From positions 1 to 61,611 of the forward strand of contig JAFYNK010000093.1 of the NCBI GenBank assembly GCA_017548125.1: a stretch of 61,611 bases of DNA. The letters run 5' to 3'. The translations under genes and the position numbers were made by a program. The notes under the pieces were generated by a model that worked only from the letters and a program-made list of their open reading frames with translations, did not search any database and was not told the origin of the DNA. The DNA is from Bacteroidales bacterium (GTDB taxonomy: Bacteria; Bacteroidota; Bacteroidia; Bacteroidales; F082). Positions 2,178 through 59,916 of this stretch are shown here, piece after piece; within the stretch, counting starts at the first letter, position 1, and each line of letters opens with the position of its first letter.

Positions 2178-3359
2178 TCACAAAACTTGATAAACCAATA
2201 TTCCAAGATAATTGCCCACAGCATAACCGATGACGCCAACAGCAATACCGGTAATGATAACTTTTTTGTTCTTCATGTTCTCAGCTATCATCGGGACAAA
2301 CAAAGGCGAATTGATAAGAGCCACAGACGTAATCACCATGGTGTCAGAATCAATTCTGAAAGCCTTAGCCAAAATCATCGACAATATCAAAGAACAGAAA
2401 ATAACAAAAGCAATATACACTATTATATTAAAGCCAGCTTTGTAATCTATGGAAGTAACATCAACCATCGTTGCAACAACGAGACTGAATATCAAAACGA
2501 GATACATTCCAGCATCGTAGCTCTTCTCCATCTTTCTTACAAAAGGCAAAAACGAAGCTGCAATAGACAATGTCGTCATCGTCAAGATAAGAACCAACAT
2601 GTTATCCACCTTTCCTGAAATGAGAAAACTAATTCCCATGCCTACACCTACTATTAATATAGCAAGTCCCAATGCGCCTAATGTCTTAGGAAAATGCTTT
2701 TTAGTAAAAATACCAAAATATGACGACTCTGAACTTTGAACTTTAAACTCTGAACTTTCTTGTTGTCTTGTTGTCTTGTTGTCTTGTTGTCTTGTTGTCT
2801 TGTTGTCTTGTTGTCTTAAAAAAAGTCGAAAGAGTTTTATTCCGAACGACATCAGAAAGACTAGATAAACGAAACTTATAATCATATCGAAAGTATGGAC
2901 GAAAATGTAAGTTTCGGCATCCACATTTAATGCGATTTTAAGGCTTGCAAGGTTAGGCGTTCCACCTGTATATACACCAACGAGCAGACCAGCTATCTTG
3001 CTAAAGCCGCTCTGTTCATCATTAAAAATATAATATCCAGCAATATCAACGACCAGTACCGATACGAGACCTATACACAAAGCCACGATAGCATTTTTCA
3101 GTTTCCAATTCTTAAAATCACAACCAAAGAGAATCATCGGGAAAGCAAGTAAAATCATCACGCTGGTAAGAGTATCCTGAATGCCTTTCAGCGATTCTCC
3201 TAGGCCAAGAGGAAAGATAATTATATTTGAGACTAGAATACCTACGACATATAACAGCAATATCTCCCCTATCTTATTCATAGCAGCATATTTACGGCAT
3301 AAAACTATCACCAGATAAGGCACGAGAAAATAAAATAAAAGCGACAAAATCTGAACCAT
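2178..3359 (-). CDS. DUF819 family membrane protein with repeat-coded loop
   Basis: The 393-residue product has about ten hydrophobic segments and the DUF819 (YjcL-like) signature GVYTGGTPNLASLKIAL near residues 129-145. The family is an uncharacterised transporter-like group of the inner membrane. Residues about 182-212, between two hydrophobic segments, are coded by seven perfect 8-nt units and five degenerate 7-nt units. They read as TTRQQDNKTT-type and SSEFKVQSSESS text, which is unlike the rest of the protein and looks inserted. Loss or gain of one 8-nt unit would shift the frame. The gene precedes the BrkB-family gene with a 4-nt overlap (using its GTG), and a -7-like box lies at 3376-3383. 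Confidence 0.88.
   Translation of the reverse strand: MVQILSLLFYFLVPYLVIVLCRKYAAMNKIGEILLLYVVGILVSNIIIFPLGLGESLKGIQDTLTSVMILLAFPMILFGCDFKNWKLKNAIVALCIGLVSVLVVDIAGYYIFNDEQSGFSKIAGLLVGVYTGGTPNLASLKIALNVDAETYIFVHTFDMIISFVYLVFLMSFGIKLFRLFLRQQDNKTTRQQDNKTTRQQESSEFKVQSSESSYFGIFTKKHFPKTLGALGLAILIVGVGMGISFLISGKVDNMLVLILTMTTLSIAASFLPFVRKMEKSYDAGMYLVLIFSLVVATMVDVTSIDYKAGFNIIVYIAFVIFCSLILSMILAKAFRIDSDTMVITSVALINSPLFVPMIAENMKNKKVIITGIAVGVIGYAVGNYLGILVYQVL
2726..2816. repeat. Tandem 7-nt and 8-nt repeats inside DUF819 gene
   Basis: 2726-2760 holds five degenerate heptads (ACTCTGA, ACTTTGA, ACTTTAA, ACTCTGA, ACTTTCT). 2761-2816 holds seven perfect copies of the octamer TGTTGTCT. The tract is wholly coding on the minus strand and in frame. 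Confidence 0.97.
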
Positions 3360-3375
3360 AAAAATATTTTTTTTG

Positions 3376-3383
3376 CGAAGATA
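3376..3383 (-). promoter_or_regulatory. Probable -7 box for the DUF819-BrkB pair
   Basis: On the minus strand TATCTTCG followed by CA is one base from TAnnTTTG, the same variant as at 18096-18103 before porU. It lies 17 nt upstream of the DUF819 start. TTG triplets that could serve as the -33 element fall within the adjacent octamer repeat at 3392-3415. Confidence 0.45.
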
Positions 3384-3391
3384 AAAAAAAA

Positions 3392-3415
3392 GTCAACAAG
3401 ACAACACGACTACAA
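3392..3415. repeat. Three degenerate 8-nt units upstream of DUF819 gene
   Basis: GTCAACAA, GACAACAC and GACTACAA follow each other with an exact 8-nt period. The wording matches the octamers at 2761, 28843 and 31983. Confidence 0.75.
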
Positions 3416-3484
3416 TACAATAAGTTTTTTTGAAACAACAAATTAATCATCATATTCATTAAACAAACTTTCAAAAAAAAACAT

Positions 3485-3492
3485 TATATTTG
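3485..3492 (+). promoter_or_regulatory. -7 box upstream of rseC-like gene
   Basis: TATATTTG matches TAnnTTTG exactly and lies 40 nt upstream of the ATG at 3533. Confidence 0.55.
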
Positions 3493-3983: not shown

Positions 3984-4025
3984 TAGCTATTAGCTGCAAG
4001 CATAAGGCTACCAACTGACAGCATA
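3984..4025. repeat. Degenerate heptad tract in rnf leader
   Basis: Six consecutive 7-nt words (TAGCTAT, TAGCTGC, AAGCATA, AGGCTAC, CAACTGA, CAGCATA) lie between the promoter box and rnfB. The vocabulary overlaps that of the heptads inside the helicase gene at 28551-28585. Confidence 0.55.
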
Positions 4026-4936: not shown

Positions 4937-6286
4937 ATGAATCCAAAGAAAACATTTCCTAAAGGCGGTGTTCATCCTGAAGAAAATAAACTTTCGTCAG
5001 ACAAACCCATTATAACATTTCCTATTCCAAAACAAGTAATCATTCCGTTGGGACAATGTCTCGGCGCGCCAGCAGAAGCCATCGTCAAAAAAGGCGACGA
5101 GGTGAAAGTGGGACAGCTCATCGGAACAGCAAAAGGCTTCATCTCTGCCAACGTCCACTCCTCGGTGAGCGGAAAAGTCTCAAAAGTAGACGAGGTGATG
5201 GACCACACCGGTTACCGCAAACCTGCTATCTTCATCGATGTTGAAGGCGACGAATGGCTCGAAGGAATAGACACCAGCGACAAATTAGTCGGAGAAATAA
5301 CATTATCACGCGAAGAGATAATCGAAAGAGTGAGAAGCCACGGCATCGTCGGTATGGGCGGCGCCACCTTCCCAACAAGCGTGAAATTATCTATACCTAA
5401 AGACAAGAAAGCCGAGTTCGTCATCATCAACGCAGCAGAATGCGAGCCTTATCTCACCTGCGACAACAGACTCCTTCTTGAGAAACCTCACGAATTTCTT
5501 GTTGGCGTCAAGATTCTGATGAAAGCCGTCGATGCTCCTAAAGCTATCGTTGGCATTGAAACCAACAAGATTGAAGCAGCGAAATTATTGGATAATATAG
5601 TTAAAGGCGACGAATATTATCACGGAATAGAAATACAGCCATTGCAGACCAAATATCCTCAAGGCGGTGAGAAACAACTCATCAAGGCTTGCACTGGAAG
5701 AGAAATCCCATCAGGAAAACTGCCTATAGAGACAGGCTGCGTCGTCGTCAACGTCGCATCCACTTTCGCCATTTATGAAGCCGTACAAAAAAACAAGCCT
5801 CTCATCTCAAGAGTGGTGACCGTCACAGGCAAGTCGGTAAAGAATCCATCCAACTTCTTGGTAAGAATAGGAACTCCATCAACAGAACTCATCGAAGCTG
5901 TTGGCGGACTCCCAGAAAACACCACCAATATCATCAACGGCGGTCCTATGATGGGCAAATCCGTTTCTGTCAACGACTTCCCTGTCATCAAAGGAACGTC
6001 AGGAATCTTGCTCATGACCGACAAAGAAGCTCAGCCTCGTAAAGTGGGCAACTGTCTCCGCTGCGGCAAATGCATCAACGCCTGCCCTATGGGACTGGAA
6101 CCATTCTTACTATGCCGTCTGTCGAAGAACAACTTCTTCGAAGAGACAGAAGCCGAACGTATCATGGACTGTATCGAATGTGGATCATGCGAGTTCACCT
6201 GCCCTGCAAATATCCCTTTGCTCGACTACATCCGTTACGGCAAGAATAAGACAGGTCAAATAATTCGTTCACGTAATCAGAAATAA
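4937..6286 (+). CDS. rnfC: Rnf complex subunit C (NADH/FMN, iron-sulfur)
   Basis: The 449-residue product contains the nucleotide/FMN-binding glycine stretch SHGIVGMGGATFPTSVKL near residues 134-151. Two 4Fe-4S motifs follow, beginning at C373 (CLRCGKCINACP) and C412 (CIECGSCEFTCP). RnfC is the peripheral subunit that exchanges electrons with NAD(H). It lacks the long C-terminal alanine-rich extension of the E. coli form, as is usual outside gammaproteobacteria. It lies between rnfB and rnfD with gaps of 5 and 7 nt, so the genes are co-transcribed. Confidence 0.97.
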   Translation: MNPKKTFPKGGVHPEENKLSSDKPIITFPIPKQVIIPLGQCLGAPAEAIVKKGDEVKVGQLIGTAKGFISANVHSSVSGKVSKVDEVMDHTGYRKPAIFIDVEGDEWLEGIDTSDKLVGEITLSREEIIERVRSHGIVGMGGATFPTSVKLSIPKDKKAEFVIINAAECEPYLTCDNRLLLEKPHEFLVGVKILMKAVDAPKAIVGIETNKIEAAKLLDNIVKGDEYYHGIEIQPLQTKYPQGGEKQLIKACTGREIPSGKLPIETGCVVVNVASTFAIYEAVQKNKPLISRVVTVTGKSVKNPSNFLVRIGTPSTELIEAVGGLPENTTNIINGGPMMGKSVSVNDFPVIKGTSGILLMTDKEAQPRKVGNCLRCGKCINACPMGLEPFLLCRLSKNNFFEETEAERIMDCIECGSCEFTCPANIPLLDYIRYGKNKTGQIIRSRNQK

Positions 6287-6293
6287 TTAAGAG

Positions 6294-7277
6294 ATGAATA
6301 ATTACACAATATCAGGCTCACCTCACGTTCACGGAGGCGAAAGCACAAAGAAAATAATGTACAGCGTCATCATCGCTCTGATGCCTGCGTTCTTATTTTC
6401 CATTTATTACTTCGGTTTCAACGCAGTGCGCGTCACTTTAATATCAGTGGCAGCATGCGTCTTAGTCGAATGGCTGATTCAGAAATTCCTCATCAAAGGT
6501 CCATGCACCATCGCTGACGGTTCTGCGATAATCACTGGTATCTTGTTGGCGTTCAACTTACCATCCAACATTCCAGCATGGATGATCATCGTCGGTTCTA
6601 TCGTAGCCATCGGCATCGGCAAGATGTCGTTCGGCGGATTGGGCAACAACCCATTCAACCCAGCATTGGTAGGACGCGTCTTCATGCTCATCTCCTTCCC
6701 TGTCGCAATGACATCATGGCCAACGCCACAGCCTTTGTTCAGCGGCGCTGCCATCGACGCCTTGACAGGTCCTACACTCTTAGGATATGTAAAAGAAGGC
6801 CTCTCACAAGGCATTGCAGCTCAAGACTTAATCATCTACGACAACATCAAAGGATTCATCTATAGCGGTTCATTAGGTGAGATAGGCTCCATCGCCATCA
6901 TCATCAGCGGTCTCTTCTTGATAATAAGAAAAGTCATCGACTGGCAGACACCTGTCATCATCATCGCTACTGTTGCTATCGTATCAACAATATGCTGGCT
7001 CATCGACCCAGTTCAATACGTCAATCCTTTGATACATATCTTCGGCGGCGGTTTGATGCTCGGCGCATTCTTCATGGCGACAGACATGGCGACATCACCG
7101 ATGACCATGAAAGGAAAGTTCATCTTCTCAATAGGCGTCGGCGCTTTGACAATCATCATCCGTCTTTGGGGCGCTTACCCAGAAGGCATGTCATTCGCCA
7201 TCTTAATCATGAATGCTTTTGTTCCTTTGATCAACAAAGCATGCAAACCAACTCGTTTCGGTAACCTCGTAAAATAA
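6294..7277 (+). CDS. rnfD: Rnf complex subunit D (membrane, FMN-binding)
   Basis: The 327-residue product has eight to ten hydrophobic helices and the RnfD/NqrB signature GLGNNPFNPALVGRVFMLIS around residues 116-135. The sequence DALTGPTLLG near residues 158-167 holds the expected covalent FMN threonine region (compare SGAT in other RnfD). It is a core ion-translocating subunit. The fragment at 2-98 is a homologue of the stretch coded near 6668. The gene is 7 nt from both neighbours. Confidence 0.97.
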   Translation: MNNYTISGSPHVHGGESTKKIMYSVIIALMPAFLFSIYYFGFNAVRVTLISVAACVLVEWLIQKFLIKGPCTIADGSAIITGILLAFNLPSNIPAWMIIVGSIVAIGIGKMSFGGLGNNPFNPALVGRVFMLISFPVAMTSWPTPQPLFSGAAIDALTGPTLLGYVKEGLSQGIAAQDLIIYDNIKGFIYSGSLGEIGSIAIIISGLFLIIRKVIDWQTPVIIIATVAIVSTICWLIDPVQYVNPLIHIFGGGLMLGAFFMATDMATSPMTMKGKFIFSIGVGALTIIIRLWGAYPEGMSFAILIMNAFVPLINKACKPTRFGNLVK

Positions 7278-7284
7278 TAAGATC

Positions 7285-7860
7285 ATGGCAGCAAAAAAAG
7301 ACACATTAATAAATATGTTTGTAGCCTTATTCGTGATATGCATAGTATCAGGCGGAGTGTTAGGCGTTGTTTATAATGCAACAAAAGAACCTATCGCTGC
7401 AGCAGAGACAGCAAAAAAAACAGAGGCTATCAAGAACGTACTTCCTGAATTCAACGAACTTAAGGAGACTATGGTGATGTCGGCTTTAGAAGACACAGAG
7501 ATTCCATTCTACCTCGCATACGACGCCGACAACAACTTCATCGGAGCTGCTGTTGAGACATTCACCAACAAAGGATTCAGCGGCAACATCAGTCTTATGG
7601 TTGGCATCTTGGCTGACGGCACCTTAAAGAACATCTCCGTATTGCAACACGCCGAGACTCCAGGTTTAGGTTCAAAGATGACAGAACCTACTTTCAAAGA
7701 TCAGTTCAACGACAAGAAAGCAGATTCTTTCAATATCAAGGTAAAGAAAGACGGCGGCGATGTCGATGCTATCACAGCAGCGACAATCAGCTCAAGAGCA
7801 TTCTGCGATGCTGTAAACCGCGCATTATTAACATTTGAAAACAACAAAGGAGGATTTTAA
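7285..7860 (+). CDS. rnfG: Rnf complex subunit G (covalent FMN protein)
   Basis: The 191-residue product has one N-terminal membrane helix (about residues 9-30) and an FMN-binding domain outside the membrane. The flavin attachment segment reads VDAITAATISSRAF near residues 159-172. The second Thr of TAAT is the expected attachment site, although most families have SGAT or TGAT. RnfG relays electrons between membrane subunits. Maturation needs an ApbE flavin transferase, which is not in this window. It lies 7 nt after rnfD and 2 nt before rnfE. Confidence 0.95.
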   Translation: MAAKKDTLINMFVALFVICIVSGGVLGVVYNATKEPIAAAETAKKTEAIKNVLPEFNELKETMVMSALEDTEIPFYLAYDADNNFIGAAVETFTNKGFSGNISLMVGILADGTLKNISVLQHAETPGLGSKMTEPTFKDQFNDKKADSFNIKVKKDGGDVDAITAATISSRAFCDAVNRALLTFENNKGGF

Positions 7861-8477: not shown

Positions 8478-9050
8478 ATGGAATACTTACTTATATTTAT
8501 CTCGGCAATATTCGTCAACAATATCGTTTTGACACAGTTCCTTGGCATCTGCCCTTTCCTCGGCGTCTCCAAGAAAATATCCACCTCTTTAGGTATGGGC
8601 GCTGCCGTTATCTTCGTCATAACTTTAGCGACAATAGTAACTTGGCTTATCCAGCACTATCTGTTAAATCCTTTTAACTTAGGATTCTTGCAGACCATAG
8701 CATTCATCTTGGTCATCGCAGCATTGGTACAGATGGTAGAAATCATATTGAAAAAGATAAGTCCTTCATTATACGCAGCGTTAGGCGTATTCTTACCGCT
8801 CATAACAACAAACTGCTGCGTTCTCGGCGTTGCCATCTTAGTTATACAAAAAGACTTCGGATTGATAGAAGGCACGATGTACGCTTTAGCTAACGGCGTC
8901 GGTTTCACCTTGGCGTTGGTTGTCTTCGCAGGCTTGCGCGAGCAACTCACACTGTCAGACGTTCCAAAAGGAATGAAAGGCGTGCCTATCGCACTCGTCA
9001 CTGCCGGCATCCTAGCATTGGCATTCATGGGATTCGCTGGACTTGTTTAA
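8478..9050 (+). CDS. rnfA: Rnf complex subunit A (membrane)
   Basis: The 190-residue product has six helices and the family signature IFVNNIVLTQFLGICPFLG at the N-terminus, with LPLITTNCCVLGVAIL in the centre. It pairs with RnfE in the membrane core. It is the last gene of the operon, followed by an octamer repeat at 9054 and a terminator at 9093. All six Rnf subunits are intact, so the complex is probably functional. Confidence 0.97.
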   Translation: MEYLLIFISAIFVNNIVLTQFLGICPFLGVSKKISTSLGMGAAVIFVITLATIVTWLIQHYLLNPFNLGFLQTIAFILVIAALVQMVEIILKKISPSLYAALGVFLPLITTNCCVLGVAILVIQKDFGLIEGTMYALANGVGFTLALVVFAGLREQLTLSDVPKGMKGVPIALVTAGILALAFMGFAGLV

Positions 9051-9053
9051 AAA

Positions 9054-9077
9054 TTTAGAATTTTAGAACTTTAGAAG
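9054..9077. repeat. Three 8-nt units after rnfA
   Basis: TTTAGAAT, TTTAGAAC and TTTAGAAG follow one another exactly, three bases after the rnfA stop. Confidence 0.85.
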
Positions 9078-9127: not shown

Positions 9128-9260
9128 AAAGTCGCACGACGCACGACTCTACGTGAGATTGACATACCATGATAGTGTTACAGGGCTGTAAGAAATATTT
9201 TTAAAAAAGTTTGGAAATCAGAAATAAAAATATAAGCTTTGTGGAACTAAAATTAAAGGT

Positions 9261-9329
9261 ATGGAGAATGTTAAAAACGACATACAAATTCTTGGGAAAA
9301 ACAAGTTCATAGAATGCTTGTCTCGATAA
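9261..9329 (+). CDS. Possible 22-residue peptide ORF
   Basis: ATG at 9261 opens a short frame coding a peptide that begins MENVKNDIQILGKNK and ends ECLSR. A promoter-like AAGCTTTG lies 20-30 nt upstream, and a strong hairpin terminator begins inside its last codons (9321). It could equally be a small RNA with that terminator, or a remnant. No family is recognised. The rest of the 9128-9479 interval holds a repeated GCACGAC heptad pair (about 9134-9147) and the inverted repeat listed next. Confidence 0.25.
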   Translation: MENVKNDIQILGKNKFIECLSR

Positions 9330-9367
9330 ATTGTTCGATTGACGAATTTATCGAGAGATTTTTTTTA
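9321..9367 (+). terminator. Strong 12-bp hairpin terminator
   Basis: TCTCGATAAATT and AATTTATCGAGA are perfect 12-bp arms around a 12-nt loop, followed by a T run. The transcript it ends must begin after 9127, so a small RNA or small gene probably lies in 9180-9320. Confidence 0.8.
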
Positions 9368-9385
9368 AGAAATAAATCAAACTAC

Positions 9386-9444
9386 TGATGTGGAAAAATG
9401 GGTTCTATCCATTGATGTAGGAAAATTGATAATAAATAGAACCC
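9386..9444. promoter_or_regulatory. Direct plus inverted repeat upstream of secreted protein gene
   Basis: The near-identical words TGATGTGGAAAAAT (9386) and TGATGTAGGAAAAT (9413) are 27 nt apart. GGGTTCTAT (9400-9408) and ATAGAACCC (9436-9444) form a perfect 9-bp inverted repeat. The element ends 35 nt before the ATG at 9480 and could be an operator or an mRNA hairpin. Confidence 0.4.
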
Positions 9445-9479
9445 ACCTTAAATATTTATAAACTTTAACGCTATTTCCT

Positions 9480-10964
9480 ATGAAAAATATAGTCATTACA
9501 TTATTATTCATATTGCACTTCACAAGTGTTTTCTCTCAGGATTTTATTACGATAGATGTAGAAATGCCAGAAGAATTTCAACTTGTTCAATGTGCGCCAT
9601 ATGCTTATTATGCTCTGGCATTGGATGATGGTGATTTTGTATTTACACAAAGTATATTTGACTTTGATAAGCAAAAAGACTGTGGAGTTAGATTTGTCAA
9701 AATGTCGCCACAAGGAAATATAACAAAAAGCATCTTTTACGAATTTAAGATTGAAGGTTCTTATGATTATCCGCACAATTGCTTGATTAAGAATCCACAT
9801 AATGAAAATGAGTTTATTTACACATATTTTTCCTATGGAGAACCATTTTATTATAATGCGGTCTTCTTTGATAAAGATCTGAACATTATTAAAGAAATCA
9901 GCGAACCATTCCTTGTGGATGATTTCAAACTGGTTCACATATCATTCCTCAATTTGGATAATAATTTCATATATATATGGAATGCCGAATCTAAATGCCA
10001 AATTGCAGAAGTTGACATATATGGGAAGGTTATAAAATCATCGGTACTTAAGGAAAACAACAATCCGCACTACCTATATAGATATTCGTTTTTTGTATAT
10101 GACAAAGAAAAGAAACAATATGGATTCATTGATGATAGCAATGGAAAGGAACATATATTTAATATATTCGACAAAGACCTTAACTTTATTAAGAGTTATA
10201 CCTTATCTGGTTATGATGGATATAAATTATTTGGAGCAGCATATGGGTATGGATGTGTGGCAAGTTTGAATGATGGAACTTTCGCTTTTACTGAAAGGTT
10301 TTATAATCCGAATGATTATAACGACAGATTTTTGCAGATGTGCAGATTGGATAAGAACTTTAATATTATAGATAAAAACATAATAGGCTACGAAGATGAA
10401 GATGGACTTAAATATTCAATTAATAAAGAGTGGAATGATATTGTAAAGTGTAAAGACGGGAGTTTATATTGTATATGGTATAAAAATTATAATGCTACAG
10501 CCACCGATTTGTATGTTGGGTATTACGATAAGGATTTAAATCTTTTGTGGGAACGATGCTGCAAAAAAGACATGGCTTGTGCTGGAAATTTCTTAGGCAT
10601 TGATGTCCTTGAAGATGGCGGTCTAGTATTAGCTGGAAACAATACTGGAGATTGGGGCGTTGCTGGTGCTTATTCATCAGTTATCATCTTTAAAAACGAC
10701 GGCGCAGTCATTTCTGAAAATCTTAACGACATCCGTCCATATAGTTTCTATCCTAACCCAGCAAGCGATGTCGTCAACATTCGTTTCTCACCAGACGTCA
10801 ATGTTGAAAAAGTAGAGATTTACGGCATGGACGGCAAACTCTATCACGAACAGAACTTCAATATGGAATCCATCAATGTTAACGGTTTGTCGAGCGGAAT
10901 CTATATGATGAAGGTGCTTCTTGATAACGGAGAAACATTTACTGAGAAAATTGTAATCAGATAA
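9480..10964 (+). CDS. Secreted protein with type IX sorting domain
   Basis: The 494-residue product begins with a signal peptide (MKNIVITLLFILHFTSVFSQ). It continues with repeated segments of the form DDGDFVFT, LNDGTFAFT, CKDGSLYCIWY and EDGGLVLAG, which suggest a beta-propeller. The last 80 or so residues are a type A C-terminal sorting domain: SFYPNPASDVVNIRF, then VEIYGMDGKL, then GLSSGIYMMKV and a final KIVIR. Such domains direct export by the type IX system and are cut by PorU. The function of the propeller part is unknown. porV and porU lie 2-4 kb downstream. Confidence 0.85.
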   Translation: MKNIVITLLFILHFTSVFSQDFITIDVEMPEEFQLVQCAPYAYYALALDDGDFVFTQSIFDFDKQKDCGVRFVKMSPQGNITKSIFYEFKIEGSYDYPHNCLIKNPHNENEFIYTYFSYGEPFYYNAVFFDKDLNIIKEISEPFLVDDFKLVHISFLNLDNNFIYIWNAESKCQIAEVDIYGKVIKSSVLKENNNPHYLYRYSFFVYDKEKKQYGFIDDSNGKEHIFNIFDKDLNFIKSYTLSGYDGYKLFGAAYGYGCVASLNDGTFAFTERFYNPNDYNDRFLQMCRLDKNFNIIDKNIIGYEDEDGLKYSINKEWNDIVKCKDGSLYCIWYKNYNATATDLYVGYYDKDLNLLWERCCKKDMACAGNFLGIDVLEDGGLVLAGNNTGDWGVAGAYSSVIIFKNDGAVISENLNDIRPYSFYPNPASDVVNIRFSPDVNVEKVEIYGMDGKLYHEQNFNMESINVNGLSSGIYMMKVLLDNGETFTEKIVIR

Positions 10965-11030
10965 TGAAGTATTGACCGTCTTGCGTGAATAAGGTTGTTG
11001 TGAAATAAGATTTAAAAGAACTTTAATAAG

Positions 11031-11066
11031 GGCGCCAGGTCACATGTTGACTTGGCGTCTTTTTTT
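11031..11066 (+). terminator. Terminator after secreted protein gene
   Basis: GGCGCCAGGTCA pairs with TGACTTGGCGTC (two G-U pairs) and is followed by seven T. The T run merges with the promoter box of the next gene. Confidence 0.85.
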
Positions 11067-11067
11067 A

Positions 11068-11075: not shown

Positions 11076-11080
11076 CATCT

Positions 11081-12922
11081 ATGAGAATATTTGTAGCTTT
11101 TATATTATCCCTTTTGGTTAAAGTCACCGAGACACCTAGTCACCAAGTCACCGAGGTCGTTTGGGGAGAAGACACCGACAAGTTCTTGGAGACTTGGAGA
11201 CTTGGAGACTCGATGTCTCATTACGACTCTCTCCTAAAAAACATCCTCGACAACAATCTCGAAGGCTGCCTCTACCTCATCGTCACTCCCAACAACAGCG
11301 GCATCGCTCAATGGGCTGACACTCTCGCCAGATTCCGCAACGAACAAGGCATCTACACTAAAGTCGTCAATATCGATGACATCTGCGAGAACAAACCTAT
11401 TCCTCTTAGAGATTATTTCAAATATATTTATGAAAACTGGGACCCTGCGCCTTCTGCCATCCTACTCTTCGGAGACTATTCCACCGACGCCACCCAGGGC
11501 ATAGCTTCTTTCTATCAGATAAATTACCACGAGAACAATATCAAATATCTCGCCGACAACAAACTCGTTGACTTCGACAACGACAATCTCCCAGAACTTG
11601 TGATTGCTCGTTTGCCTGCTGCCAACGCTCAACAGGCAGAACTCATGGTAAAGAAAACCATTCGTTATGAAACTCATCCTTCTACAAATCCCGATTATTA
11701 CAACCACCCTGTGACGGCGATGGGATTCGAAGAGGCACGATGGTTCCAACTTTGTTCTGAAGTCATCGCTGGTTATTTCGAAAAAATAGGTAAAGAGCCT
11801 AAGCGTCTTAATTCCATCAACACTGGTCTCCCCGACTCAGTCTGGTCAACAGGCAAAAACACGGATTTGATTATAGATTATTTTGGAGAAAATGGATTGA
11901 ACTATATTCCAGACAATTTAAAGCATCTCACCGAATGGAATGCCAATCAAGATGATTTGAGCCGCGCCATCAACGAAGGAACGTTCATAGTACAGCATCG
12001 CGACCATGGCGTATTCCAAAACTGGAGCAACCCTTATTTTTCAAACAATGAAATAAACAAACTGAAAAACGAAGACCTCACTTTCATAATGTCTGCCAAC
12101 TGTCAGACTGGAGATTTCAATTACGGCGAAGGCGATAACGACTGTTTTGCTGAGAGATTCTTAAGAACGGAAAACGGCTGCGTCGCTATAGTCGCTGCCT
12201 CTCAAATATCATATTCTTTCACTAACGACACATACGTCTGGGGATTCTACGACTATCTCTGGAACGACTTCATGCCTCAGTATGGCGACAACACAACAAA
12301 ATTCAAATACCCTGCTTTCGCTAACGTTTATGGCAAATATTTCCTTCAACAATCTTCTTGGGCTAATTTGCTCCACAAAGAAATCACTTACAATCTATTT
12401 CATTATTTCGGCGACGCATATCTGCAACTCAACACTGAAATGCCAAAAGAAATAAATATATATTACCCAAAAGAAATCGCCACTGATTGCAATTCGTTCT
12501 TAATTAGAAAAGATGCTGACACACGAGTCGCATTTTCTATTGATGGAGAAATAATAGCAACTTCATTCAACAACGACAGCATAATAGAAATAAAGCCTTT
12601 TTATAAAGAGAATAGAATCAAGGTTGTTGCGACAAAACAAGATCATTTCCGTCACGAAGGATATATTGATATAAAAAGCAAATTGAACAAAAACGACATA
12701 AACATCTACCCTAATCCTGTAAAAGACATTTTATTTGTTGAAGGAAAGGACATCAAGCTGATAGAAGTTTATAACACTTTAGGACAAATGTTAATGAAAA
12801 TTAACAATGCTGAATCAAAAGAAAGAATTGAGATTGATTGCAACATATTAAAAAAAGGACTCTTTCATCTTCATATCATCTACGAAGACAAAAGAGTCGG
12901 CAAATCTTTTATAGTTAATTAA
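11081..12922 (+). CDS. C25 (gingipain/PorU-like) peptidase with sorting domain
   Basis: The 613-residue product has a short hydrophobic N-terminus (MRIFVAFILSLLV), then about 30 residues coded by octamer repeats. A C25 peptidase domain follows: SAILLFGDYSTD, an HRDHGVFQNW motif with probable catalytic His309, and SANCQTGDF with probable catalytic Cys341. The C-terminus (INIYPNPVKDILFVEG ... GLFHLHIIYEDKRVGKSFIVN) is a type A sorting domain, so it should be a type IX secreted enzyme. It resembles the PorU catalytic region in this window but lacks the long N-terminal part. It ends 1 nt from the convergent porV stop. Substrate unknown. Confidence 0.85.
   Translation: MRIFVAFILSLLVKVTETPSHQVTEVVWGEDTDKFLETWRLGDSMSHYDSLLKNILDNNLEGCLYLIVTPNNSGIAQWADTLARFRNEQGIYTKVVNIDDICENKPIPLRDYFKYIYENWDPAPSAILLFGDYSTDATQGIASFYQINYHENNIKYLADNKLVDFDNDNLPELVIARLPAANAQQAELMVKKTIRYETHPSTNPDYYNHPVTAMGFEEARWFQLCSEVIAGYFEKIGKEPKRLNSINTGLPDSVWSTGKNTDLIIDYFGENGLNYIPDNLKHLTEWNANQDDLSRAINEGTFIVQHRDHGVFQNWSNPYFSNNEINKLKNEDLTFIMSANCQTGDFNYGEGDNDCFAERFLRTENGCVAIVAASQISYSFTNDTYVWGFYDYLWNDFMPQYGDNTTKFKYPAFANVYGKYFLQQSSWANLLHKEITYNLFHYFGDAYLQLNTEMPKEINIYYPKEIATDCNSFLIRKDADTRVAFSIDGEIIATSFNNDSIIEIKPFYKENRIKVVATKQDHFRHEGYIDIKSKLNKNDINIYPNPVKDILFVEGKDIKLIEVYNTLGQMLMKINNAESKERIEIDCNILKKGLFHLHIIYEDKRVGKSFIVN
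11123..11208. repeat. Octamer repeats just after the C25 signal peptide
   Basis: 11123-11154 holds GTCACCGA, GACACCTA, GTCACCAA and GTCACCGA. 11185-11208 holds three copies of CTTGGAGA. Both keep an exact 8-nt period and are read in frame as residues about 15-43. Confidence 0.93.
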
Positions 12923-12923
12923 A

Positions 12924-22902: not shown

Positions 22903-22908
22903 ATCAAT

Positions 22909-22971
22909 TCATAATGTATAATGCATAATGCACAATTTAAACTATGAATTATGAATTGTGAATTATGAATT
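22909..22971. repeat. Nine heptads between exbB and exbD
   Basis: Words of exactly 7 nt run from TCATAAT, GTATAAT, GCATAAT and GCACAAT through TTAAACT to ATGAATT, ATGAATT, GTGAATT and ATGAATT. The first half is roughly the inverse complement of the second, so the tract can also fold. Confidence 0.92.
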
Positions 22972-22988
22972 AAATCAAAAAAGATACT

Positions 22989-27883: not shown

Positions 27884-29380
27884 ATGGATAGAAACACTTT
27901 ATTTAACGTATTGCTAAACAACTTCGGATTCACACCTACCGAAGGACAAGCCAAGGTATTATACCATCTTTCAGCATTTATTTTAAGCGAAAAAGAAAAA
28001 CCAGTATATTTATTGAGAGGTTATGCAGGAACAGGAAAAACGACTCTAGTTTCAACATTAGTAAAGACATTGCCGAGCATTGGAAAACGCTACCAGTTGC
28101 TAGCGCCAACAGGAAGAGCAGCAAAGGTAATGAGTACATATACAGGAAAACCTGCATCCACATTACATAGAAAATTATACAGATTTCAAGTCAATGCCAA
28201 CGGAGAATTTCGTATGGCACGAGCCGAGAACAAAGCAAAAGATACAATTTTTATTGTTGACGAATGTTCTATGATTTCAGACCAAGGCGACGGCTATTCT
28301 TGGTCGCGTTCTCTTCTTGACGATTTAATAGAATACGTATTTAGCGGCAGCTGTTGTAAACTGCTGCTTATCGGAGATTCGGCACAGCTGCCGCCAGTAG
28401 GTCTCGACATCTCCCCTGCAATGGATTTCAACATATTGAAAAACAGCTTCTCACTCACACTCGCCACTTACGAAATGAAAGAAGTAATGCGACAAGCATT
28501 AGATTCAGGTGTGTTATATAATGCAACGAAAATCCGTAACTTAATGGCTTCAGCCAACAGCCAACAGCTATTAACATACAGCCAATACGAACTACCATTA
28601 TTAGAAATCAAGGACTTCACTGATATTGAAAAAATCAACCCGATGTCGTTCGAAGAGTTGTTGTGGAAATGTTTCGGTGATAAGAGAAACAACAATGATG
28701 CTGTTGTAATTTGTCGTTCCAACAAAAGAGCCAATATGTTCAACCAAGCCATAAGAAGCAGAGTGCTTCAAGAAGAAGGCGAACTCTCAACTGGAGATAA
28801 ACTCATGGTGGTGAAGAATAATTACTATTGGGCCAAGGAAGAGACTACAAGACTACAAGACTACAAGACTACAAGCAATAACCCGAACTCGTCCCCAATC
28901 TCCTTCATCGCCAATGGCGACATGATTGAAATCACGAGAATCAACAAATTCGAAGAAATGTATGGCTTTCATTTCGCCGATGTTGACATACAGATGACAG
29001 ATTATGAGGATGCGCCTACTCTTTCTGTAAAGATAATAATGGAGACTTTATACAGCGACTCCCCTGCCCTCACAAATGAAGAAGCCAAGAAATTTTATCA
29101 AGCTGTTGAAGAAGATTACATGGATATTCCACGAGCTTCCGACCGTCGTAAGGCCATGAAAGAAAATCCTTATTACAACGCATTACAAGTAAAATTCGGC
29201 TATGCCCTCACCTGTCACAAGACGCAAGGTGGGCAATGGAACAATATATTTATTGAAGCCCCATATCTACCAGAAGAAACAATATTAGAATTAGGAGATT
29301 TACGTTGGCTCTACACAGCCATCACACGCGCTAAAGAAAAAATATATTTAGTTAATTTTAAAGATGAATGGTTTATGTAG
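27884..29380 (+). CDS. RecD-like ATP-dependent DNA helicase
   Basis: The 498-residue SF1B helicase has Walker A GYAGTGKTT (Lys52) and Walker B IFIVDECSMI. Further motifs are LLIGDSAQLPPVG, GYALTCHKTQGGQWNNIFIE and LYTAITRAKEKIYLV. It is shorter than RecD2 and belongs to the stand-alone RecD-like helicases common in Bacteroidota, probably serving repair or recombination. Two stretches look inserted in frame: residues about 223-234 coded by heptads and about 320-331 coded by four GACTACAA octamers, both between core motifs. Its TAG stop lies inside the palindrome at 29377. Confidence 0.9.
   Translation: MDRNTLFNVLLNNFGFTPTEGQAKVLYHLSAFILSEKEKPVYLLRGYAGTGKTTLVSTLVKTLPSIGKRYQLLAPTGRAAKVMSTYTGKPASTLHRKLYRFQVNANGEFRMARAENKAKDTIFIVDECSMISDQGDGYSWSRSLLDDLIEYVFSGSCCKLLLIGDSAQLPPVGLDISPAMDFNILKNSFSLTLATYEMKEVMRQALDSGVLYNATKIRNLMASANSQQLLTYSQYELPLLEIKDFTDIEKINPMSFEELLWKCFGDKRNNNDAVVICRSNKRANMFNQAIRSRVLQEEGELSTGDKLMVVKNNYYWAKEETTRLQDYKTTSNNPNSSPISFIANGDMIEITRINKFEEMYGFHFADVDIQMTDYEDAPTLSVKIIMETLYSDSPALTNEEAKKFYQAVEEDYMDIPRASDRRKAMKENPYYNALQVKFGYALTCHKTQGGQWNNIFIEAPYLPEETILELGDLRWLYTAITRAKEKIYLVNFKDEWFM
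28551..28585. repeat. Five heptads inside helicase gene
   Basis: CAGCCAA, CAGCCAA, CAGCTAT, TAACATA and CAGCCAA run with a 7-nt period and are translated in frame. Confidence 0.8.
28843..28874. repeat. Four perfect GACTACAA octamers inside helicase gene
   Basis: Four identical 8-nt units give the text TTRLQDYKTT in the protein, nearly the same as TTRQQDNKTT in the DUF819 protein. Thirty-two bases is not a multiple of three, so the flanks hold the frame. Confidence 0.96.
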
Positions 29381-31839: not shown

Positions 31840-31893
31840 CACAGATTTCACAGATTACTCAGATTTCACAGATTTCGCAGATTACCCAGATTT
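31840..31893. repeat. Six nonamers in intergenic region
   Basis: CACAGATTT, CACAGATTA, CTCAGATTT, CACAGATTT, CGCAGATTA and CCCAGATTT follow each other with an exact 9-nt period. A small inverted repeat AGCCT-TTC-AGGCT follows at 31957-31969. Confidence 0.95.
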
Positions 31894-31962: not shown

Positions 31963-32382
31963 TCAGGCTATTATTAAACACTCTTGTTGTCTTGTAGTCT
32001 CGTTGTCTTGTAGTCTTGTAGTCTTCAAAAAAACCAAGGCGAAGCCTAACAGCAGAAGATGTCCGCCGTTCAACGGAACATCATCGGCAAACATATCAAA
32101 GCCGCTGAATTCAAGGCTGTTGTAGTTAAGCTCATTGCCGAAGTTGTCGAACTCGAAGCCGTTGCCTATGCTCTCATCAAACAAATCGAAGGTGAAGCCG
32201 TAGCCTCCTGTAGGTGCAAGCTCGTCAAAGCCGAGGCCAACGACATCTTCTGGAGAACGAAGCTCATGACTGCTCTCGTCTTGGAAATAAGCATCGTTGT
32301 GTGTATTCTGAGCCCATAGTTCATTAGAAATAAAAGGCAGAAAACACAGAATGAAGATTAATACTTTTACTTTTGTTTTCAT
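31963..32382 (-). CDS. Small secreted protein with PID-CTERM-like tail
   Basis: The product has 139 residues from the ATG at 32382; an upstream in-frame start at 32454 would bury the signal peptide. MKTKVKVLIFILCFLPFISNELWAQ is a signal peptide. The acidic, aromatic body has no family I know. Near the end, DDVPLNGGHLLLLGFALVFLK resembles the short hydrophobic C-terminal tails (PID/VPxDGG type) of Bacteroidota sorting signals. These normally stop after one or two basic residues. Here the frame continues into octamer repeats, adding TTRLQDNETTRQQECLIIA, so the original stop may have been lost. Confidence 0.6.
   Translation of the reverse strand: MKTKVKVLIFILCFLPFISNELWAQNTHNDAYFQDESSHELRSPEDVVGLGFDELAPTGGYGFTFDLFDESIGNGFEFDNFGNELNYNSLEFSGFDMFADDVPLNGGHLLLLGFALVFLKTTRLQDNETTRQQECLIIA
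31983..32022. repeat. Five octamers at the 3' end of the small secreted gene
   Basis: CTTGTTGT, CTTGTAGT, CTCGTTGT, CTTGTAGT and CTTGTAGT keep an exact 8-nt period. The minus-strand wording, ACTACAAG/ACAACAAG, is the same as in the DUF819 and helicase genes. Confidence 0.95.
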
Positions 32383-48692: not shown

Positions 48693-48724
48693 GCTACGCT
48701 TTTAATTACTAGATAGTTTTACAA

Positions 48725-51209: not shown

Positions 51210-51231
51210 CTTTATTTACACCTTTAATATA

Positions 51232-51699: not shown

Positions 51700-51732
51700 G
51701 TTCTAATTTCTAAACTGTTTACCGTTTAACAA

Positions 51733-52125
51733 TTATTTCTTCTTAGCGGCTTGTTTCTTAGGACGTTTAGCGCCGTATTTTGATCTACGTTGTGCACGAC
51801 CATCAACACCTGCAGTATCCAAAGCACCACGGATGATATGATAACGTACACCTGGAAGATCCTTAACACGACCACCTCTAATCATCACGATAGAGTGTTC
51901 CTGCAAGTTATGACCTTCACCTGGAATATAGGCATTAACTTCTTTTTGGTTGGTCAAACGAACCCTAGCAACTTTACGCATAGCTGAATTAGGCTTCTTA
52001 GGTGTTGTTGTGTAAACACGAACACAAACACCACGGCGTTGTGGGCACGAATCCAAGGCAGGAGATTTACTCTTGTCTTCCAATTTTTGACGTCCCTTGC
52101 GGACTAATTGTTGAATCGTTGGCAT
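51733..52125 (-). CDS. rpsL: 30S ribosomal protein S12
   Basis: The 130-residue product starts [20 protein letters not shown] and has [20 protein letters not shown] and [20 protein letters not shown]. The two decoding-centre lysine regions linked to streptomycin response carry the wild-type residues. It is the first gene of the whole ribosomal block, preceded by a leader of about 250 nt. Confidence 0.98.
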
Positions 52126-52380
52126 TTCTTTTTCTTTAAATTACTAATTTTTATCCATTCAATAGGAAAAATTCCTTTTATTTTCTCTCAAATAGCCAAA
52201 AATTTCACTCTTTAAACAACATAGTTTCGGGAGTTACAGCCACGACAGTGACTTATTTTGCTAAACCCACTGTAAGCCCATAGAACTGATTTTTAATTAC
52301 TTACAATGTAGAAACCTCTAACGTTTAACTTATCAGGTCCCTTAACTATCTCATTCACAAAGTTATTCTTTCTAACTTTT
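52126..52380 (-). promoter_or_regulatory. Long 5' leader of the ribosomal block
   Basis: About 250 nt separate the promoter box at 52389 from the rpsL ATG. The leader holds a 6-bp hairpin (ACAGTG 52245-52250 with CACTGT 52268-52273) and a short GTG-initiated frame of 21 codons (52357 to 52293, ending GFYIVSN). It could carry an autoregulatory element for a ribosomal protein. I recognise no known family. Confidence 0.4.
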
Positions 52381-52388
52381 TCCGTGTG

Positions 52389-52396
52389 CAAAGATA
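52389..52396 (-). promoter_or_regulatory. -7 box of the str-S10-spc-alpha block
   Basis: On the minus strand TATCTTTG followed by CA is an exact TAnnTTTG match, with TTG triplets in the usual upstream range. It is the only clear promoter for the 31 ribosomal-block genes. Confidence 0.7.
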
Positions 52397-52588
52397 CAAC
52401 TTTTTCTTTAATTACCAACACTTTGTGTATATTTTTTTTCATTTTTTTATATTTTGTTTTTTTATCATTTATTTCATACATTTTTTCACAACAGCAAACA
52501 TATATATAATATGTAACATGGTTTGTAATTAGACATCAATCAAATAAAAAAAATAAAATATTTGGCTACTATTTACCTCTTATTTTAT

Positions 52589-57722: not shown

Positions 57723-57735
57723 TTAGCAAAACACG

Positions 57736-58878
57736 ATGGAGAAAAGAGATTATTACGAAGTGCTTGAAGTATCTAAAAATGCTACAAGCGATGAGATAAA
57801 AAAAGCCTATCGCAAGATGGCGATCAAATACCACCCAGACAAAAACCCTGACAACAAGGAAGCCGAGGAAAAATTCAAGGAAGCAGCTGAAGCGTATGAA
57901 GTCTTGAGCAATCCCGACAAACGTTCTCGTTACGATCAATTCGGCCATGCTGGATTACACGGACAACAAGGATTCAGCGGAATGGACGATATATTCAGTC
58001 ATTTCGGCGATATTTTCGGCGACCTATTCGGCGGTAGCGGATTTGGATTCGGAGGATTTGGCGGCGGCGGAAGACAAGCCCAAAGGCACGTCAACAGAGG
58101 CAGCAATATTCGCATTAGAGTAAAACTCAATCTCAGCGAGATAAACGAAGGCGTCAGAAAAAAAGTAAAAGTCAACAAATACGTCCCATGTCAGCATTGC
58201 GGCGGAAGCGGCGCAAAGGACAACAGTTACGAGACATGTCCAAGCTGTAACGGCAGAGGTCAAACCGTAAAGATTCAAAACTCCATTTTCGGCCAAATGC
58301 AGACTGTGTCAACATGTCCTAACTGCGGCGGTGAAGGAAAAATCATCAAGAACAAATGTCCTGAATGCCAAGGAAATGGCATTGTAAAGAGTGAAGAAAT
58401 CATTGAACTCAACATTCCTGCAGGTGTTTCAGAAGGCTTAGAATTATCAGTAAGAGGCAAAGGTAACGCTGGTGCAAGAAACGGCATTGCTGGCGACCTC
58501 AGGATTCTCATTGAAGAAGAAAAAGACAAAGATCTTGAACGCGACGGAGATAACCTCATATACAACTTATTCATCAGCTTCCCACAAGCAGCTCTTGGAA
58601 CTACGGTAGAAATCCCACTCATAAACGGCAAGACAGAAGTCAAAATCCCAGCAGGAACACAGAGTGGCGAAGTCATAAAATTAAAAGGCAAAGGCCTTCC
58701 TGATTTTAACGGATACGGAAAAGGAGATTTACTCGTCAACGTAAGTGTATGGACACCGAAAAATCTAAATAAAGAAGAAGAGAAAATCATGAAATCGCTT
58801 TTAGAAAGCGAAAATATGGACCCTGCGTCAGACAAAGACAAAAGTCCATTTAAGAAATTCAAGAAATTCTTTAGCTAA
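57736..58878 (+). CDS. dnaJ: Chaperone DnaJ
   Basis: The 380-residue product has the J domain with HPDKN (residues 33-37) and a Gly/Phe-rich linker ([14 protein letters not shown]). Four zinc-binding repeats follow ([32 protein letters not shown]), then the substrate domains. It delivers unfolded proteins to DnaK and stimulates its ATPase. Co-transcribed with grpE. All zinc cysteines are present. Confidence 0.98.
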
Positions 58879-58887
58879 TAAACAAGT

Positions 58888-58949
58888 ATAAGGTTTAAGG
58901 CATAAAGTTTAAAGTAATTCACAATTACAAAAAAAGCCTTAAACCTTAT
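58888..58949. repeat. Heptad tract with perfect 14-bp inverted repeat
   Basis: ATAAGGTTTAAGGC (58888-58901) and GCCTTAAACCTTAT (58936-58949) are exact inverse complements, with a smaller GTAAT/ATTAC pair between them. The interval also divides into 7-nt words such as AGGTTTA, AGGCATA and AAGTTTA. It may end the dnaJ transcript. Confidence 0.8.
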
Positions 58950-58977
58950 GTTTTCTAATCATAAACTAAAACCAACT

Positions 58978-59916
58978 ATGAACAATTTTATAGAGATAAA
59001 AAACGTCAGCAAGACGTATGGAAATTATAAAGCATTAGACAATATAAGCATTTCTATTCCAAGACAAAGCATCTACGGACTTCTCGGTCCAAACGGTGCA
59101 GGCAAAACAACGCTCATAAGAATGCTTAACCAGATAACAGCTCCTGACGAAGGTTCCATCATATTCAACGGAGCAACATTAAATAGAAACCACATATCCC
59201 AAATCGGATATTTACCTGAAGAAAGAGGACTTTACAAGAGCATGAAAGTTGGCGAGCAGGCAATATATCTCGCACAGCTTAAAGGCGTCAGCCAAAAAGA
59301 CGCTGAAAAAAGACTTAAATCATGGTTCAACAAATTCGGAATCTTGAATTGGTGGGACAGAAAAGTAGAAGAACTAAGCAAGGGAATGCAACAAAAGATA
59401 CAGTTTATAGTAACTGTAATACATAATCCTCAACTACTTATATTCGACGAGCCTTTTTCAGGATTTGACCCTATCAACGTAAATATACTCAAAAACGAAA
59501 TACTTGAGCTTCGCGACAAAGGAGCAACGATAATTTTCTCTACTCACAACATGGCATCAGTAGAAGAATTGTGTGACAACATCATGCTTATTAATAAAGG
59601 CAAGAAAATACTCGAAGGCAGCGTTTATCAGATAAAACAAGATAATAAAGACAATAAGTTTGAAGTCAAACTCAGGAATTCTGGAATTCAGGAATTCAGG
59701 GATTCTGGTCACTGGGTATTACCAGATGGTTTTTCTATTATTTCTGCTGATGATAAAGACGTAAATTCTGAAACAACATTAGTCATTAGCGCGGAGAAAG
59801 AAATAAATCCTAATATTTTGATTAATCACTTATCAGAAAAAGGAACCATTGTTTCATATAGAGAACTTTTACCTTCAATGAATGACATTTTCATCAATAA
59901 AGTCAATAGTTTATAG
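58978..59916 (+). CDS. ABC exporter ATP-binding protein (NatA-like)
   Basis: The product has 312 residues from ATG 58978; an upstream ATG at 58948 lies in the repeat. It has Walker A GLLGPNGAGKTTLI, signature EELSKGMQQKIQF and Walker B LLIFDEPFSGFDP with the H-loop STHNMASVEEL. It should power the ABC-2 permease coded next, as in NatAB-type exporters. Substrate unknown. Residues about 233-243 (NSGIQEFRDSG) are coded by octamers and fall after the core domain, where tolerance is likely. Confidence 0.92.
   Translation: MNNFIEIKNVSKTYGNYKALDNISISIPRQSIYGLLGPNGAGKTTLIRMLNQITAPDEGSIIFNGATLNRNHISQIGYLPEERGLYKSMKVGEQAIYLAQLKGVSQKDAEKRLKSWFNKFGILNWWDRKVEELSKGMQQKIQFIVTVIHNPQLLIFDEPFSGFDPINVNILKNEILELRDKGATIIFSTHNMASVEELCDNIMLINKGKKILEGSVYQIKQDNKDNKFEVKLRNSGIQEFRDSGHWVLPDGFSIISADDKDVNSETTLVISAEKEINPNILINHLSEKGTIVSYRELLPSMNDIFINKVNSL
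59675..59706. repeat. Four octamers inside ABC ATPase gene
   Basis: GGAATTCT, GGAATTCA, GGAATTCA and GGGATTCT run with an exact 8-nt period and are translated in frame. Confidence 0.95.

Follow-up and report, generated by a model that had tools for sequence, protein, structure and literature searches.

How do words of exactly 7, 8 or 9 nt come to be repeated head to tail at many separate places in one bacterial chromosome, and what kind of element are they? The question is raised by a 61,611-nt stretch of a Bacteroidales genome (hereafter the window), in which fourteen such tracts had been pointed out (Table 1). We scored each against 5,000 pieces of 60 nt drawn at random from the window, the tracts themselves being included in the draw. 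At 11 of the 14 coordinates the score was reached by no more than 1.1% of the pieces, and the tract at 3392 was marginal (2.3%); 12 of the 14 stand out from random pieces, but neither the heptads at 3984 nor those at 58891 rise above this background, with 21% and 10% of the pieces scoring alike, respectively. Each tract was also predicted to keep a fixed period, which holds for most listed tracts but not for composites such as 2726-2817, where a heptad block is joined to an octad block.

Table 1. Tandem-repeat tracts of the window, with their counterparts in related genomes (G456, G449 and others)
Tract	Position	Strand	Method and location	Counterparts
Heptad block ACTTTGA/ACTCTGA	2726..2758	-	Tandem Repeats Finder, self-match scan; within DUF819-family ORF 2178-3359 (minus)	Same block in G456
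Perfect octad block TCTTGTTG x7.5, CAACAAGA in ORF sense	2758..2817	-	Tandem Repeats Finder	G456 shorter by 24 nt (3 units)
Degenerate octads	3392..3424	+	Intergenic; marginal score	
Claimed heptads	3984..4010	+	Indistinguishable from background	Stretch absent from G456 and G449 (aligned gap)
Octads TTTAGAAx	9046..9076	+	Tandem Repeats Finder; begin at end of ORF 8478-9050	Equal length at same site in G456
Octads AAGTCACC	11121..11152	+	Tandem Repeats Finder; near start of C25-protease ORF 11081-12922	Heptads of CAACAGA/CAACAGT type instead in G456
Octads CTTGGAGA	11185..11210	+	Tandem Repeats Finder; also in C25-protease ORF 11081-12922	
Heptads AATGCAT / GAATTAT	22906..22972	+	Intergenic; Tandem Repeats Finder lists 22906-22936 and 22943-22972	Heptads in four related genomes; at most 16 nt between same anchors in five outgroups
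Heptads CAGCCAA/CAGCTAT	28551..28575	+	Within helicase ORF 27884-29380	Different sequences in four related genomes
Octads AGACTACA x4	28842..28875	+	Tandem Repeats Finder; within helicase ORF 27884-29380	Filled with other words in relatives; empty in five outgroups
Nonamers CACAGATTT x6	31840..31893	+	Intergenic; Tandem Repeats Finder	
Octads TCTTGTAG/TCTTGTTG	31982..32025	-	Tandem Repeats Finder; 3' end of ORF 31963-32454 (minus), which matched no Pfam family	
Claimed heptads AAGTTTA/AAGGTTT	58891..58920	+	Weak, inside background range	
Octads TCAGGAAT	59672..59705	+	Tandem Repeats Finder; within ABC-transporter ATPase ORF 58948-59916	

The same kind of tract was expected elsewhere in the genome, and a count by period in 852,015 bases (31% of the genome, G000) confirmed this. 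Tracts were spread throughout the sample, 70 of them at period 7, 68 at period 8 and 12 at period 9, with only 1, 0 and 3 at periods 4, 5 and 6 and 2, 1, 7 and 6 at periods 10 to 13; unit length is thus concentrated at 7 and 8 nt, with some units of 9 nt. When the first 452,015 bases were replaced by a single order-2 Markov copy, no tract appeared at any period from 4 to 30, and none was found in 50 kb of E. coli K-12. Since the genomes are draft assemblies, chance, base composition or an assembly artefact might be invoked, but the two empty controls, the presence of the same sites in other assemblies and the preserved frame of in-gene inserts leave this explanation virtually no credence for the tracts as a class; 2 of the 14 cited tracts remain within the background.

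The short tandemly repeated repetitive sequences (STRRs) of cyanobacteria are dispersed and intergenic. The original prediction likened the tracts to these, and the resemblance is supported here by tandem units of 5-11 nt in excess of chance, the property shared by STRRs and long simple sequence repeats (LSSRs), and by a dispersed, mostly intergenic distribution (209 of 349 tracts in three genomes lie between ORFs). Repeats of this kind are already known from bacteria; in this gut bacterium they take an unusually active form. Dominance of heptamers, which is usual for such repeats and not strictly defining, is not seen in G000 (7:8 = 70:68) and present in other members of the genus (29:4); in the clade containing G000 the overall ratio is 202:149. 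According to excerpts of the cited papers, the STRR of Calothrix PCC 7601 consists of three tandem heptanucleotides (as cited in PMC4692102), and the LSSRs have units of 5-11 nt, heptamers being commonest, and have been proposed to relate to the stretch of DNA that the polymerase grips (Mrazek 2007, as cited in PMC4679880 and PMC4692102). Our tracts share with the former the tandem heptamers within one genome, but units of 7 nt are about as common as units of 8 nt, the words are more diverse and some sites have exchanged words; unlike the LSSRs, they include an 8-nt class as large as the 7-nt one, concentrated in a single clade of the genus.

Closer in taxonomy are the TAACTGA direct repeats, which excerpts of PMC4679880 place in Beggiatoaceae, cyanobacteria and five Bacteroidetes, with as many as 43 copies, other heptamers interspersed and some of the repeats in ORFs; relatives have shorter repeat-free spacers, and close cyanobacterial strains differ by indels in 7-nt steps. 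All of this resembles our heptads, including their occurrence in Bacteroidetes, but here octads are abundant, tracts show no preference for the position directly upstream of starts, and TAACTGA is absent, in any rotation, from the 45 main heptad words of the G000, G456 and G462 stretches. The GGGNATC heptamers of Xanthomonas and Nostoc (excerpts of PMC4692102) are likewise dispersed, intergenic, rarer between divergent ORFs and variable in length and sequence between the same genes; they are G-rich quadruplex formers with four units preferred, whereas our main words contain no run of three G. In Geobacter metallireducens, as here, sites with 3-5 units of 7 or 8 nt in tandem are scattered both inside genes and between them, but excerpts of PMC2700814 describe families that can be aligned and were interpreted as regulator sites or RNA elements; in our case it is mainly the word that recurs and not a longer sequence that could be aligned. 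The suggestion that such tracts are under-described in Bacteroidales thus fits the octads and the word exchange, but not the heptads, which were already published for Bacteroidetes in the excerpted text of PMC4679880.

A vocabulary common to different loci was the most specific feature predicted, and it is real within the genome. With non-primitive words and words of fewer than three letters left out, here as in the cross-phylum comparison below, the 70 heptad tracts draw on 23 words and give 151 coincident pairs against a null maximum of 13 in 300 draws, and 67 octad tracts draw on 22 words (370 pairs, null maximum 8). A small vocabulary is therefore reused at unrelated loci, for which slippage alone is an insufficient explanation. 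Sharing of the vocabulary across phyla was not demonstrated: in 80 kb of Calothrix, one of three heptad words matched exactly and none of the reversed words did, and in flanks from other phyla 1 of 15 words matched exactly against 0 reversed, with matches within one mismatch equal for real and reversed words (8/15 each).

We next turned to the same sites in relatives. Heptads were found throughout the genus, whereas among its 60 genomes the main octad family is characteristic of five related ones (G000, G456, G449, G436 and G462, no other having more than one octad match). A syntenic counterpart was identified for 104 of the 470 tract loci in six genomes. Among 104 unique orthologous pairs within the clade, 52 carried the same word, in one case on the opposite strand, 21 a single copy, 10 a tract of a different word, 7 a mixture and 14 no tract, a classification to be read against the fact that 277 of 4,000 random 60-nt pieces reach the weak tract score. 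A single copy in a relative may equally be a contracted tract, the two being indistinguishable, and by our estimate a single near-match to a 7-mer within about 50 nt is not far from what chance would give. The comparison for empty sites that had been proposed reveals turnover, as at 28842 (Table 1): shared sites vary in copy number, and in some of them one word replaces another between species. The different-word pairs fall at six sites and could alternatively reflect composite arrays that lost different blocks. Steps of 21 nt, or three heptads, occur at two loci (L282 8640 and L285 3336), but for most pairs with the same word the length difference is not a whole number of units; in 84 comparisons, reciprocal pairs included, 25 were equal and 12 others differed by whole units, a count blurred by the anchor ends. 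Heptad and octad blocks do occur side by side.

The distribution relative to genes was surveyed for the 349 tracts of three genomes, loci below 5 kb being dropped and 19 edge and 17 partial cases kept apart. Between ORFs, 209 tracts lay in 146 kb, and within ORFs 104 in about 1.56 Mb, a roughly 20-fold difference in density (the Y loci, fetched by their octads, were left out of density comparisons). The predicted entry into genes is thus confirmed, hosts in the window including helicase, DUF819, ABC ATPase and C25 protease genes. A role as regulatory binding sites, for instance in translational control as proposed for the Beggiatoaceae TAACTGA repeats, agrees with the enrichment between genes, with the lower density in divergent gaps (0.75/kb versus 1.6-1.7/kb) and with the proposal, in excerpts of PMC4679880, for heptads just 5' of starts. 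We nonetheless consider such a role improbable: related species differ in word and even in unit length at one site, octads in tandem gaps occur in both orientations (14 sense, 10 antisense), a good share of tracts lies in ORFs, and tracts sit closer to stops (median 42 nt) than to starts (median 71 nt), start distances being variable. Among 31 neighbouring same-period pairs within 80 nt, 7 were inverted and 2 direct; inverted pairs could form hairpins, but 22 of the 31 were unrelated and a hairpin role was rejected. No Rfam family matched within the window, and the specific non-coding role envisaged by the original prediction was not found.

Repeats of 7 or 8 nt inside genes would shift the frame upon a one-unit change and might thus act as contingency loci for phase variation, one host being a secreted C25 protease. 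This is very unlikely given that, in between-species comparisons with known gene context, length differences were divisible by 3 in 31 of 34 in-ORF pairs versus 5 of 28 between ORFs, and that other hosts are helicase, DUF819 and ABC ATPase genes; no variation within a single species was seen. Tracts do enter conserved genes and are exchanged in them with the frame preserved, which offers a route to new protein loops.

How, then, do the tracts arise? We lean, with some reserve, towards STRR/LSSR-type repeats produced by step-restricted duplication, homology-driven spread of words and a filter of selection. Slipped-strand duplication in replication or repair would make tracts grow and shrink, favouring a 7-8 nt step; homology-driven copying (ectopic gene conversion or template switching) would spread words to recipient sites holding about one unit; and selection would retain tracts between genes, away from divergent promoters, and in tolerant protein loops if the whole insert is in frame. 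Heptads would represent the background state of the genus, and octads would have been amplified in the clade containing G000. An active copying or slippage process had been suggested, and of its two forms copying is supported only indirectly, by word reuse far above chance and word exchange in 10 of 104 pairs, while slippage alone falls short of explaining reuse at unrelated loci. No copying event was itself observed. The preference for 7 and 8 over 6 or 10 nt also goes beyond what slippage in general explains. Loss of mismatch repair was rejected, since all 15 genomes examined for it have the MutS family. With end units included, none of 500 reversals reached the value for octad unit order in G000, and the result was borderline for two CAACAG sets (33 and 63 of 500); without end units, 133, 500 and 62 of 500 reversals reached the octad value in G000, G456 and G462, respectively, so no direction of growth is seen.

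That no direction of growth is seen also bears on a telomerase-like or defence reverse transcriptase of the DRT10 kind, which would copy a short RNA template whose product enters the chromosome. DRT10 yields tandem-repeat cDNA with a short unit, of 9 nt in one system (excerpts of PMC12632851, a preprint), similar in length to the units here, and RVT_1 genes were detected in G000 (one) and G449 (two). The DRT10 product is an RNA-templated, protein-primed product of a reverse transcriptase, whereas no RVT_1 match was obtained in three of the five octad-rich genomes, G456 (84% complete), G462 (79%) and G436 (91%), which carry the same octads. Over the 60 genus genomes RVT_1 is not linked to octads, as 32 have it, most of them without octads, and we give this source little chance. 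A mobile element with its own ends appears no more credible as a carrier, despite flanking pieces common to some octad tracts and other dispersed repeats nearby: among 40 listed of 85 flank-to-flank matches from 39 tracts, 30 were, by our reading, neighbouring heptad- or octad-like sequence, and flank profiles are A/T-rich with no common end.

A lead on the unit length itself comes from translesion polymerases. The clade may have swapped DinB (Pol IV) for UmuDC (Pol V), gaining 8-nt slippage, so that the polymerase would set both unit length and burst. A UmuC-type IMS gene was found only in G000, G456, G449 and G436 of the 60 genomes, none of which has a DinB-type gene (present in 46 of 60); together with G462 these are the five octad-rich genomes, and the 7:8 ratio differs between the clade and the rest of the genus. 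The idea is nevertheless unlikely, resting as it does on a single evolutionary event with non-independent tracts. G462 (79% complete) shows neither gene type, and outgroups hold a few octads. The octad pattern in reverse, used as a control, has matches in 25 of the 60 genomes, with a maximum of 23 in G009, and further octad-like words may therefore occur beyond the clade. G022, which bears a DinB-type gene, exceeds the clade in heptads per kb, making the swap unnecessary for abundance. In its full form, which we regard as a long shot, unit length would reflect a step physically taken by a polymerase complex of repair or translesion synthesis, 7 nt for DinB; the DinB-to-UmuDC clade would have added units of 8 nt, and homology-driven copying would have carried their words to other loci, where they replaced older tracts at the same sites.

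Related genomes of this genus form a natural series, from those with heptads for the most part, through those with both heptads and octads, to those with almost none, and they provide alignable sites, sites empty in outgroups and a candidate gene difference. Dispersed heptamers have been noted in several phyla, and the genus bears on their origin, on the preference for 7 nt and on the spread of words. An octad scan of a species-genome collection, run without a control word and hence claiming no excess, returned 83 stretches; of the 80 listed, three assemblies of ruminant-gut 'Bacteroidales bacterium' contributed 50, and the other 30 belonged to scattered taxa, other phyla included. Spread by viruses was among the readings rejected: in a viral collection, one stretch contained the octad tract.

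Tandem Repeats Finder recovered the majority of the tracts of 7-, 8- or 9-nt units (heptads, octads and nonamers) that the original prediction had placed in the window, which belongs to a draft genome of 2.73 Mb in 97 contigs (G000). With 5,000 random 60-nt segments cut from the window as the reference, 12 of the 14 tracts cited there stood above background, the one at 3392 marginally (2.3%), and those at 3984 and 58891 proved ordinary. The tract excess in the genome is above chance and period-specific. A first sample of 452,015 bases contained 41, 32 and 4 tracts of periods 7, 8 and 9, none of periods 4–6 and 8 of periods 10–13 (self-match score of at least 13), and one order-2 Markov copy of this sample gave no tract at that score for any period tried. 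Enlarging the sample to 852,015 bases yielded 70, 68 and 12 tracts of periods 7, 8 and 9, with 4 of periods 4–6 and 16 of periods 10–13. No tract was detected in 50 kb of E. coli K-12. Allowing two mismatches at most, TCTTGTTGTCTTGTTG occurs at 363 places in the genome and its reversed form at 11, with overlapping occurrences in one tract each being counted.

The vocabulary shared between loci, also predicted, was borne out: in G000, 70 heptad tracts built on 23 words formed 151 coincident pairs and 67 octad tracts built on 22 words formed 370, whereas seeds drawn from the flanks reached maxima of 13 and 8, respectively (300 draws each). The commonest words were AATTATG (13 tracts), AAGACTAC (20) and AACAAGAC (19). 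Comparison of the 100-nt flanks of 39 octad tracts gave 85 flank-to-flank matches; among the 40 listed, 30 were by reading adjoining heptad- or octad-like sequence, one was a different dispersed repeat and the remainder were A/T-rich or promoter-like. Because most listed matches are such adjoining sequence, it is chiefly the word that recurs. A second element of the dispersed kind, whose core is CTTCGACAAGCTCAG (see table), also occurs at the G456 helicase site and in G462; 852 kb of G000 contain one exact core (three with one ambiguous base), and more were seen in relatives. A longer dispersed repeat, which starts with GTTAGGGATTGAAGCGG and includes AGCCCGACGGCG (6 and 5 matches in 852 kb of G000), sits in gaps of G462, of loci fetched by their octads and of G000 where relatives have tracts.

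The octad pattern was found at 426 places in G000, 263 in G462, 185 in G456, 53 in G449 and 19 in G436; of the remaining genus genomes (60 in all, own included), two had one match each and 53 had none. In a phylum-wide set of 395 genomes, G000 among them, a single match turned up in one further genome. The reversed control matched in 25 of the 60 genus genomes, at up to 23 places (G009), so octad-like words other than the main pattern may exist elsewhere; 20 kb of G009 held no octad tract. Judged by a helicase protein, G462, G456, G449 and G436 are nearer to G000 than any other genus member compared (74–88% identity, against 59–69% for 31 others; the comparison covered 36 of the 60 genomes). 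Among the comparisons listed, tract flanks in 'Bacteroidales bacterium' loci from ruminant gut align to the genome at 70–95% identity.

Heptads are more widely spread than octads. GAATTAD repeats matched in 43 of the 60 genus members, with 204 matches versus 90 for the reversed control in G022, of which 40 kb held 10 heptad tracts and no octad tract. These tracts use their own words, which suggests a lineage-specific vocabulary; the G022 stretches L309 and L310 show heptads only (TTTCCGT, TTTTATC and GAGAACG). Neither heptad nor octad tracts were present in 40 kb of G457. De novo detection gave 202 heptad and 149 octad tracts in the five-genome octad-bearing clade versus 29 and 4 in other genus members, a split that represents one contrast and not hundreds because tracts share history.

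A syntenic counterpart was found for 104 of 470 tract loci in six genomes. Within the clade, counting each site pair once gave 104 pairs (147 with reciprocal pairs): 51 shared the word and one more shared it on opposite strands, 21 had one copy, 10 a tract of a different word (at six sites), 7 were mixed and 14 had no tract. At 28842, within the helicase ORF (27884–29380), five outgroups are empty; the window carries AGACTACA octads, G456 TCAGCAG/TCAACGG heptads, G462 CAAGAC octads plus heptads, G449 a weak CCCGTCT heptad (score 9) and G436 a 7-nt spacing visible by eye only and scored as no tract. At 28551, four relatives have other sequences and outgroups have shorter or non-repeat sequence. 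In the gap at 22906, all five genomes of the clade have heptads; the outgroups have no more than 16 nt between the corresponding anchors.

Slippage with a preferred step of 7–8 nt, which Mrazek proposed long ago according to PMC4679880 and PMC4692102, would most likely account for how tracts grow and are lost. Copying from tract to tract, driven by homology, could then produce both word reuse and word exchange at one site, and would be their simplest cause; exchange could alternatively arise by unequal loss out of composite arrays, which do exist. Related cases noted in the portions of the open literature consulted are cyanobacterial, Beggiatoaceae, Xanthomonas and Geobacter repeats; the passages seen of PMC2700814 read tandem heptamer and octamer sites in the Geobacter metallireducens genome as regulator sites or RNA elements, and those of PMC4060949 give no unit-7 detail. 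Titles and abstract openings searched in the open literature contain no description of the octad class or of word exchange at orthologous sites.

Of the candidate factors tested, MutS family proteins occur in all 15 genomes tested, and a reverse transcriptase (RVT_1) is present in G000, G449 and 30 other genus members, with no profile match in G456, G462 and G436 among the 60 genus genomes. A Y-family polymerase (IMS) gene was found in 54 of the 60 and in none of the other six, including G462 (79% complete). By score, 46 are of the DinB type (153–162 bits), four match only more weakly or in part, and G000, G456, G449 and G436 have a UmuC-type score and length (128–131 bits, 424–425 aa) and no DinB-type polymerase. 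NCBIfam naming, applied to four of the proteins, ranked UmuC top for G000 and G449 (398 and 396 bits, below the curated cut-off of 431) and placed G010 and G461 with DNA polymerase IV, for which they exceed one of the cut-offs. The ORF adjoining the UmuC-type gene of G000 matches UmuD above cut-off. We offer the UmuC/DinB difference as a test to run and not as a cause, because it reflects a single evolutionary event and because G022, which is DinB-type, is tract-rich.

Features located in the window and in related loci
Feature	Location	Basis or content
umuD-umuC pair	L237 (G000:C45) 5649-7369	UmuC-type score, UmuD match
C25-family protease region	window 9480-18054	two proteases with type IX secretion signals; third ORF sharing the sorting domain
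18-kb run	window 34200-52400	mostly small minus-strand ORFs; parts 77-90% identical in relatives
Octad tracts in ORFs	L260 (G462:C6) 9249-17926	AAGACTAC tracts every 2.1-2.3 kb on one contig
Second dispersed element	L215 (G456) ~16089-16118	core CTTCGACAAGCTCAG, beside or between tracts

Of 349 tracts of period 7–9 in three genomes (1.77 Mb, with loci below 5 kb dropped and ORFs called mechanically), 104 lay within ORFs, which make up 88% of the sequence, and 209 in the 146 kb between ORFs; 17 were partial and 19 at edges. Density per kb of gap was 1.7 in convergent, 1.6 in tandem and 0.75 in divergent gaps. Three-unit copy-number differences occur in several genes, namely 24 nt in the octad block of the DUF819-family ORF (2758–2817) and 21 nt at both L282 8640 and L285 3336, two loci with similar flanks. 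Length differences were divisible by 3 in 31 of 34 in-gene cases (39 of 42 with reciprocal pairs) and in 5 of 28 between ORFs (6 of 30). Since 31 of 34 in-gene differences are multiples of 3, the inserts are most likely translated and selected, and the differences do not resemble phase variation. Octads within ORFs carry CAAGAC in the sense direction in 27 of 28 cases. Antisense CAAGACTA has stops in every frame and antisense CAAGACAA does not; selection may disfavour the hydrophobic peptide encoded by the latter.

One C25-family protease of the window has tracts close to its start. The regular spacing in L260 suggests a tandem gene family, each copy with a tract. The repeat lists include no tract of period 7–9 in the 18-kb run of the window, which looks like a ribosomal-protein cluster.
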